Assembly (NCBI GenBank): GCA_937891465.1
Contig: CALAHF010000204.1
Span: 1 to 64,000, forward strand
DNA: 64,000 bases
Source of the DNA: an uncultured Verrucomicrobiales bacterium
Lineage (GTDB): Bacteria; Verrucomicrobiota; Verrucomicrobiia; Verrucomicrobiales; DEV007
Direction of reading: 5' to 3'
The notes beneath the pieces were generated by a model. The model was given only the letters and a program-made list of their open reading frames with translations. It was not told the origin of the DNA and did no database searches. Of this stretch, positions 61,298 to 64,000 are shown piece by piece. Both the position numbers and the translations under genes were made by a program. Numbering within the stretch: position 1 is the first letter of the stretch; each line of letters begins with the position of its first letter.

Positions 61298-63484
61298 ATG
61301 TCATTTTCATTTCGAAATATGTTCTCAAAGGATGATGAAAACGCATCCAACGACGCTGGAGCTTCGAATCCGGATGATCAGCAACCTTTTATAAACCCCC
61401 GGCAATACACCGGTGACGGTAACTTTCAGGCGATGTTCGATCATTCATCCGGCAACGCACAAGCAGGTATGCCAATGGAAGGTGGGGCGGGAGCCGATCC
61501 TCGCGGTGTTAGTCTGATGGGGCAGATGCCTGCCGCGGCGGCTCCGGGAATTAAACAGCATTATTTAGCGAGTGAGCTTTTGGCGTTTATCCCTCCAGCG
61601 ATTGCTCCCCAGGCGGGGATCCCCATGGAGCAAACGATCGCGATTGGACTTCCTGCTGATGGTTCTACCGACGTGCGTCTTTCGACTATTTGTGCGGCAT
61701 GTCCGCAATTGTTTGCGGTGGAAATCACTCCGTTGAACGATTCGGTGATTACGTTGCCTCCGCGATTGGCTGCTGCTCCGCAACCACAGGCAGCTCCCCA
61801 GGCCAGTGGTATGGATTTAGCCAGCATGCGGGCAAATACGGGCGGTTCACTGGTTGCAAACAATCCTTTCGCAGGTGCGGCTCAAAGCCCAATTCACCCC
61901 CAAAACACGGGTGCCCCGGCTGCCGGGCCTCCTCAGGCACCTGCCGCAGCGGCAAGTCCGTTTGGTGCTCCGCCTGCAGAGCCAACGGGGACTCCTTCTC
62001 AATTTGGATTTCCGGAACCGCCGGCGGCAGCTGCCCCGGATGCGCAATCTGCTTTCAGTCCTTTTGGCGCTCCACCTCAAGCCGCGCCCATGCCTCAACC
62101 GGCGCCTACGCCAGCAGATCAGTCAGGCGCTACCCCGACGGTAGGTTTTTCCGCGATTGGGCCGATCCCTGATTCGAACGAAGGTGGTGGTAACATCTTC
62201 GGTCCAACGCCGCAGGCGGATTCTATTTTCCCTGCTGGAAATCCATTCGATGAGCCTGCTGCGGCCGCTCCCGCTTCGCCGCCGCAAGCTGAATCGCCGG
62301 CCAATCCATTTGGTGAAAGTGGGGCTTTTGGTGCGCCTGCTTCGGCGGCGGCTCGATTTGCGACTCCTGAGGCCAACCCGTTCGATTCCTCAGCGAGTTA
62401 TTCGACCATTTTTTCAGAGAAAGCTCAAGAAGATGAACAAAAGGAGGTTCCCGGTATTTTCGGTTCTCCTGTAGCACCAGACCAGGCGGTGCCAGCTCAG
62501 GCAGTAGTCGCTTTTGAGCCAGTGAATGCTCCTGCTCCTCAAGCCGAACTTCCGACGATTGATGAGGCGTTGCCTCCGCAAGCAGCTGGTTCGCCTAATC
62601 CGTTTGCGCAATTTGAGGCATCCCCTGCTTCTGAGCAGCCAAATCCATTTGGGCAACTGGATGCCGCGCCGATCGCTGAACAGCCTAGCTTTGAGGATGC
62701 ATTGCCGCATCAATCAATCGAAAGTCCAACACCTCCTTTTGGACAGCCTGCCGCAACCAGTTTTGAGCCGCCGACTGTTGCCCCCGAAGCTGCCAACCTG
62801 CAGCTTTCTCCGTTTCATTCACCTGAAGCGCCTGCTGAAATGCCGGCGCCAGCTGCTGCTCCTCCTGCCGAGATATCTGCGTTCGATGCAGGTGAGTCCG
62901 ATAGTTTCGATGATCTTTCTCCGTTTACGGCAGCGGTAGGGGCTCGGAATTCCTTTTTTGACGAAATTTCAAACTCTGAACCAGCTTCGAGGGCAGAAGT
63001 TCAGGGAACTGCTCCAATCCCGGAAGATCCCAAAGCTACTGCTTCTCCTGCTCCAGAAGCAGCGCCCGTTCCAGAGATGGTGCCTGCTCCCTTCGATTCG
63101 GTGGTCAAGAACGTTGAGTTGAGGGCAGTGTTTGGGACGAATGAGGAGTTCACTCCCGAAAGTGTTGCAGTGAAAATCGTTGGTATCGATGGCATTGCGA
63201 CCTGCGCAGTTCAATCGGGTGCGGCAACCAGTCAAGCGGTGCGAGCAGGTCAGCCGACGATGGCGCTTTCGCAGATTAAAAGTCTCTCGGAGAGTGCGAA
63301 GCAAATTGCTGCGCTCAGCGGTGTGGCGGACGCATGTGCATTCACGATCCACACTGACAAAGGGTTGATTTCCATTTTTTCACATGAATCCGCAACTGTT
63401 TTCGTTCGGCATCTCTCCGGCGAATTCGATCCCGGTGTTCGCGAAAAACTCATGCTCATCACTCGCGGTGTGGCCAGTCTCTGA
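61298..63484 (+). CDS. Disordered NPF-rich protein with roadblock-like C-terminus
   Basis: 728 residues. An N-terminal conserved-looking block lies at about 90-155 (YLASELLAFIPPAIAPQ, then FAVEITPLNDSVITLPPR). About 155-590 is Ala/Pro/Gln-rich and disordered, with six NPF motifs (NPFAG, NPFDE, NPFGE, NPFDS, NPFAQ, NPFGQ) and several SPFG/PPFG. The last 130 residues look like a roadblock/LC7 domain (DGIATCAVQSGAATSQAVRA, HTDKGLISIFSHESATVFVR). It is followed by an MglA-type GTPase, whose regulators (MglB) are roadblock proteins. It probably acts as a scaffold and GTPase regulator in polarity or motility. Confidence 0.75.
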   Translation: MSFSFRNMFSKDDENASNDAGASNPDDQQPFINPRQYTGDGNFQAMFDHSSGNAQAGMPMEGGAGADPRGVSLMGQMPAAAAPGIKQHYLASELLAFIPPAIAPQAGIPMEQTIAIGLPADGSTDVRLSTICAACPQLFAVEITPLNDSVITLPPRLAAAPQPQAAPQASGMDLASMRANTGGSLVANNPFAGAAQSPIHPQNTGAPAAGPPQAPAAAASPFGAPPAEPTGTPSQFGFPEPPAAAAPDAQSAFSPFGAPPQAAPMPQPAPTPADQSGATPTVGFSAIGPIPDSNEGGGNIFGPTPQADSIFPAGNPFDEPAAAAPASPPQAESPANPFGESGAFGAPASAAARFATPEANPFDSSASYSTIFSEKAQEDEQKEVPGIFGSPVAPDQAVPAQAVVAFEPVNAPAPQAELPTIDEALPPQAAGSPNPFAQFEASPASEQPNPFGQLDAAPIAEQPSFEDALPHQSIESPTPPFGQPAATSFEPPTVAPEAANLQLSPFHSPEAPAEMPAPAAAPPAEISAFDAGESDSFDDLSPFTAAVGARNSFFDEISNSEPASRAEVQGTAPIPEDPKATASPAPEAAPVPEMVPAPFDSVVKNVELRAVFGTNEEFTPESVAVKIVGIDGIATCAVQSGAATSQAVRAGQPTMALSQIKSLSESAKQIAALSGVADACAFTIHTDKGLISIFSHESATVFVRHLSGEFDPGVREKLMLITRGVASL

Positions 63485-63560
63485 CAGAGACCAGTCCGCC
63501 GATATTTTTGAGCACTCAGAAACTCGAAACCAAACCCTATAGACTAAAAACTTTCCCATT

Positions 63561-64000
63561 ATGATCGTTAATCACGACACCAAAGAAGCTCAGTTTAAAA
63601 TCGTCTATTGCGGCACTCCGTTTGGCGGGAAAACGACGAATTTGAACTACATATACGGTCAGTTGGGTCCCGGTCTTCGGGGGGGGCTTGTTTCGATCGC
63701 AACCAATCAGGATCGCACGTTGTTCTTCGATTTTTTGCCGGTAAATGCGACTGAAATCGGCGGGTATCAGACTAGGTTTCAGCTGTATACCGTTCCCAGT
63801 CAGCGTGTTTATGCAAATACCCGGGAAGTGGTCCTTACGGGGGTTGATGGAATCGTTTTTGTGGCTGATTCCGATCCAGAGCGTCAAAGCGAAAATCGTG
63901 AAGCCTACTCAGCAATGTTGAGTGCGTTGGCTCATCATGGTCTGGATCAAGAGTCCGTTCCAATTACTATTCAGTTCAATAAGCGAGATCTGGACGATGC
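63561..64000 (+). CDS. mglA: MglA-like small GTPase, 3' end outside the window
   Basis: Partial: 146 codons from ATG 63561 to the window edge without a stop. Ras-like motifs: P-loop CGTPFGGKTTNLNYIYGQ, switch region LFFDFLPVNATEIGGYQTRF, then VLTGVDGIVFVADSDPERQ and FNKRDL, the guanine-specific NKxD. MglA switches with MglB-type roadblock proteins to set cell polarity and gliding in myxobacteria. A G8 run (63679-63686) lies in the coding frame. The 76-bp gap to the previous gene has only a half hairpin unit (CCAAACCCTAT). Confidence 0.92.
   Translation, partial: MIVNHDTKEAQFKIVYCGTPFGGKTTNLNYIYGQLGPGLRGGLVSIATNQDRTLFFDFLPVNATEIGGYQTRFQLYTVPSQRVYANTREVVLTGVDGIVFVADSDPERQSENREAYSAMLSALAHHGLDQESVPITIQFNKRDLDD

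Follow-up and report, generated by a model that had tools for sequence, protein, structure and literature searches.

Analysis of a draft genome (5.97 Mb) of an uncultured Verrucomicrobiales bacterium revealed a gene set in which the Ras-like GTPase MglA and its partner MglB are encoded next to a roadblock-containing protein with a long array of [NS]PF motifs (here named A) and to genes for a TolQ-TolR-TonB-like module. Most likely, the motif serves as a clade-specific docking array, and A would act as a roadblock adaptor between the MglA/MglB cycle and a TolQR-type envelope machine. The window, i.e., the whole stretch of DNA that was analyzed, comprises positions 1 to 64,000 of contig C204 (86,756 bases) and ends within the second gene of the set. 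An earlier note made from the window's sequence had advised a look beyond position 64,000, and there the operon indeed goes on with a true mglB and the TolQ-TolR-TonB-like module. The features are as follows (window or contig coordinates).

61074 to 61104 (about), + strand: intrinsic terminator hairpin with a 13-bp stem and a TTTTTT tail (dG, -24.4 kcal/mol; z, -6.6)
61298 to 63484, + strand: gene A, 728-aa open reading frame with N-terminal domain, [NS]PF linker, and C-terminal roadblock domain; orthologs found
61298 to 61324, + strand: N-terminal signature of A, MSFSFRNMF, kept in most orthologs of the window's family
61535 to 61774, + strand: conserved N-terminal domain of A, aa 80 to 159 (62% mean column identity, 29 sequences)
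61775 to 63088, + strand: linker of A, aa 160 to 597, Ala/Pro-rich, about 440 residues, 10 [NS]PF motifs
63089 to 63481, + strand: C-terminal roadblock domain of A, aa 598 to 728, according to AlphaFold model, Foldseek, and VIA-align
63561 to 64253, + strand: gene B, MglA-type GTPase; the window holds 63561 to 64000, i.e., the first 146 of 230 aa
64323 to 65354 (contig, beyond the window): gene C, mglB with acidic tail (Robl_LC7 and MglB homology)
65471 to 66196 (contig, beyond the window): gene D, tolQ/exbB (Pfam MotA_ExbB; nearest TolQ/ExbB)
66193 to 66600 (contig, beyond the window): gene E, tolR/exbD (Pfam ExbD; ExbD/TolR)
66597 to 67043 (contig, beyond the window): gene F, TonB-like membrane protein, apparently with one membrane helix, which holds S-x3-H

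The hairpin at about 61074, which the earlier note had already called a strong terminator, is predicted to close the upstream unit before A. A terminator scan gave weaker terminator-like matches also inside the A-F unit, which do not in themselves indicate function.

Domain structure of protein A

The 728-residue protein proposed in the earlier note is present and has orthologs in 48 of the 75 genomes of the window's family. Searches with A against Pfam and NCBIfam gave no match. Its N-terminal signature occurs in a recognizable form also in many loci beyond the window's family, and named relatives found via the N-terminal domain come from Verrucomicrobiales and Akkermansiaceae metagenome assemblies. 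An AlphaFold 2 (AF2) model of this domain of about 80 residues reached a pLDDT of 83 and found no fold match in the PDB, which does not in itself make it a new fold. A candidate second copy of the domain in the genome (contig C19; E = 0.008) was rejected as a chance match inside a transporter-like sequence. The linker that follows is probably disordered, judging from its composition and the absence of alignable sequence.

The C terminus was modeled by AF2 with a pLDDT of 89.9 and shows the alpha-beta-beta-alpha-beta-beta-beta-alpha order expected for a roadblock domain. The top Foldseek match of this model was MglB of Thermus thermophilus (1j3w; E = 7.5e-5), and VIA-align against MglB yielded a Z score of 12.9. 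At the sequence level, a weak match to a Robl_LC7 chain was obtained (E = 0.0015), and a profile comparison of the A roadblock with gene C (MglB) gave no sequence alignment, so the likeness to MglB is one of fold only. On the modeled structure, the C terminus is predicted to be a roadblock fold closest to MglB, in line with the roadblock-like end that had been suspected.

The [NS]PF motif array

In the window, the linker of A harbors six NPF and four SPF motifs, i.e., 10 in total compared with 0.72 expected and a maximum of 6 in 20,000 shuffles. The repetition described in the earlier note as NPF/SPFG thus lies far above shuffled controls, but SPFG covers only part of the motifs, which are better given as [NS]PF, often with A or G next. 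In a pool of 78 linkers drawn from five families within the order, 427 motifs were observed versus 38 expected, an approximately 11-fold ratio that is descriptive, since the shuffle expectations take residues as independent and the orthologs are related. The residue before PF in these 78 linkers was Ser in 286 cases (66 expected) and Asn in 141 (15 expected); the depleted residues include Ala, Pro, and Gly, and most other xPF combinations fell below expectation. In related families outside the order (20 loci), the operon is present and most linkers are Pro-rich, many with about as much proline as those of the order, but [NS]PF is not enriched (2 observed versus 3.3 expected). This contrast with the sister families is a stronger argument than the pooled ratio. 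It indicates that the array evolved in the order or was retained there, and with the operon otherwise intact in the motif-less families, core function does not require the motif.

The Ala/Pro-rich linkers of A change length fast, and those of the orthologs do not align despite their [NS]PF enrichment. Fast drift in length would suit an ordinary low-complexity filler whose motifs stem from repeat expansion or composition. These sources were rejected on the strength of the shuffles, the absence of a tandem-repeat array in the DNA of gene A (TRF), and the motif-less sister families; together with the variation of NPF codons and flanks between copies in A, these results argue strongly against a filler, an explanation that is largely refuted and highly improbable. 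The [NS]PF motif is under selection. Among 1,074 genes without an operon-family match in the fetched neighborhoods, it was found 120 times (80 expected), and none of these genes had at least three motifs. A genome-wide search with a motif-pair pattern gave a sole cluster (three hits) in gene A, with a total near that of the reversed-pattern control. In the window's family, one or two SPF motifs, usually SPFE, are present in the majority of MglB tails.

How such an array would act can be read in two ways. Regular Phe residues in an Ala/Pro-rich linker, with a strict choice of Asn or Ser ahead of PF, could represent condensate stickers that bind each other or the N-terminal domain of A, so that A phase-separates into a cluster. 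However, the same strict preference argues for a specific pocket over generic aromatic stickers, and we consider condensation unlikely. Docking on a partner is the reading that we prefer. A search of the host genome for an EH-domain partner (PF12763) gave no match, and the control genomes gave no match either.

Switch genes, motor genes, and their linkage to A

The open reading frame at 63561, directly after A, corresponds to the MglA-like gene anticipated from the window. A phmmer comparison with T. thermophilus MglA (3t12) gave an E value of 3.5e-47 over residues 3 to 188, and the P-loop GTPFGGKT (GxxxxGKT) and NKRD (NKxD) are both present. By these features, gene B is assigned to the MglA small GTPase family, with GTP binding and hydrolysis predicted. 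Its G3 region reads TVPSQ in the window genome; outside one family (f2), almost every relative has TVPGQ or a close variant. This exchange of the usual Gly for Ser may be genuine or stem from an error in the draft assembly, and the GTPase cycle may differ. In family f2 (L143-L146, L149, L150, and L162), GTPase relatives after A are without NKxD and mostly without an intact P-loop, as if they were pseudo-GTPases, while A there keeps its SPF motifs.

Gene C matches Pfam PF03259 (Robl_LC7) above the cut-off, with MglB as the best PDB match (E = 3.9e-15). Most loci of the window's family encode an acidic MglB tail of about 200 to 430 residues. At the end of these acidic tails stands a conserved peptide that resembles a C-terminal docking motif; it reads GPFYF in most of the family and GGPRYVFEI in the window's genus (L002:4823-4852).

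The motor genes resemble those of Tol-Pal/Ton systems: D is nearest to TolQ/ExbB, E to ExbD/TolR, and the N-terminal helix of F carries S-x3-H, a motif known from TonB, with a nearly invariant Ser and an invariant His in 24 sequences. In contrast to Tol-Pal/Ton, the present genes are linked to a Ras-like switch, and D and E score below the equivalog cut-offs. The C-terminal region of F in most relatives matches a TonB C-terminal profile weakly (E = 0.068), Pfam TonB_C gives no match, and the F of the window genome is without that region. Two further TonB_C proteins are found in the window genome. Contigs C89 and C52 of this genome (G000; L208, L209, and L217-L220) hold two loci in each of which a pair of ExbB-type genes precedes a TonB_C protein, a doubled ExbB arrangement.

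The C-terminal domain of A was found in 182 of 289 genomes and 40 of 50 genera of the order and is thinner in the class (42/189). In 76 of 98 neighborhoods, mglA comes next after A, which bears out the conserved linkage expected from the window; the 98 loci were chosen by their match to A and are uninformative on mglA without A. Their architectures are A-B-C (33 loci), A-B-C-D-E-F (30), A-D-E-F without mglA and mglB (12), A-B (11), A alone (8), and others (4). The 30 loci with all six genes together and the 12 in which A stands with tolQ-tolR-tonB-like genes but without mglA and mglB identify A as the common part; with the 33 A-B-C loci, they show A to be linked to MglA/MglB and, independently of these, to the motor genes. 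These independent ties are the main evidence that A joins the two. In genus g8 (L052, L055, and L057), a short, motif-less A directly precedes tolQ-tolR-tonB-like genes, and mglA and mglB are absent. A correlation of the motif with the presence of MglA, suggested by this genus, was dropped since f2 genomes without detected mglA keep SPF arrays.

These architectures also bear on the possibility that A is a second MglA regulator (a co-GAP or GEF, comparable to RomY or MglC, which act with MglB in Myxococcus), with a linker that mainly positions the domain and motor genes that are mere neighbors. One GTPase gene is flanked by two roadblock proteins, as such a role would have it, and MglB is known to work in heteromeric roadblock complexes (PMC9481161), including GAP complexes, with RomY and MglC as its roadblock-domain partners (PMC9481161, PMC7949163). 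Many loci, moreover, hold A-B-C without adjacent tolQ-tolR, seen at the locus level only. On the other hand, A stays with the tolQ-tolR-tonB-like genes in the 12 loci without mglA and mglB, and in family f2 A is retained next to GTPase relatives that are without NKxD, which makes a purely regulatory role possible but doubtful. The earlier note had proposed a multivalent polarity scaffold. Multivalency is reasonable, as the motif is under selection and clusters only in A in this genome, but the retention of A beside the motor module where mglA and mglB are absent points to an envelope-motor adaptor rather than a polarity protein alone.

A proposed envelope machine and its relation to known systems

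Drawing on the domain folds or homologies, the operon conservation, the modular co-occurrence, and the selection on the motif shown here, we give roughly even chances to a model in which A-mglA-mglB-tolQ-tolR-tonB-like encodes a GTPase-controlled envelope machine with A as cytoplasmic adaptor and the [NS]PF array as docking site. In this model, MglA (B) would serve as switch, with MglB (C) as its probable GAP, while TolQ/TolR (D and E) would form a proton-driven motor whose work the TonB-like F would carry into the periplasm. Through its roadblock domain, A would form a pair with MglB or bind to MglA, and its N-terminal domain, together with the MSFSFRN segment, would make contact with a conserved partner or the membrane. 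The [NS]PF array would offer many weak contacts by which switch, A, and motor could be gathered at one site. Several observations weigh against the model: the roadblock profiles of A and MglB do not align, F matches the TonB C terminus weakly in relatives and is without that region in the window genome, many A-B-C loci have no tolQ-tolR next to them, the motif is missing from families with an otherwise intact operon, and the window's MglA has the unusual Ser. We infer all of these binding events as well as the direction of control and the clustering, and the process served may be envelope constriction, surface attachment, pili, or motility. A bolder and clearly tentative version would be that the Ras-like GTPase module runs a proton-driven envelope motor via a disordered roadblock protein whose Verrucomicrobiales-evolved [NS]PF array recruits a partner not yet known in bacteria, as a counterpart of eukaryotic motif-array adaptors.

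The adjacent genes for a GTPase and a probable roadblock GAP are homologous to MglA-MglB of Myxococcus xanthus and T. thermophilus. In contrast to these switches, a motif-array protein with its own roadblock precedes mglA here, and MglB has a long acidic tail. The MglA of Myxococcus works together with the AglRQS motor and GltG, a TonB-like protein (PMC3169522), and the MglA-linked TolQ/TolR-type motor and TonB-like transducer of the present operon are alike in this respect. However, the operon contains one TolR-type (ExbD/TolR) gene, where Agl-Glt has two, no Glt genes were recognized among the conserved neighbor families, and F is without the FHA domain described for GltG. Lacking the two-TolR-gene feature, the present system would work like Agl-Glt without being a member of it. 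RomR is a disordered, Pro-rich scaffold that acts with MglA/MglB (PMC12719032); unlike RomR, RomY, and MglC, A joins a roadblock and a disordered linker in one chain, and no receiver domain was recognized in it. A GTPase survey places the Verrucomicrobia MglA in Group 5, whose neighborhoods vary widely, and the A-mglA-mglB-motor arrangement is not described in the available part of that survey (PMC4316618). Our literature search found no paper joining MglA, ExbB, and roadblock, and Verrucomicrobia, MglA, and gliding motility were joined only in a GTPase survey.

Most knowledge of MglA/MglB switches comes from Myxococcus, Thermus, and Bdellovibrio. In Verrucomicrobia, a different phylum, the switch shares an operon with a putative adaptor and, in many of the genomes, also with a TolQR/TonB-like motor, and this gene set suggests a previously undescribed way of connecting a Ras-like switch to the cell envelope. 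The [NS]PF array is a clear case of a short linear motif in a disordered protein of bacteria and lends itself to testing, and the natural variants with or without MglA, the motor, and the motif array offer a comparative system for the wiring of Ras-like switches to envelope machines.
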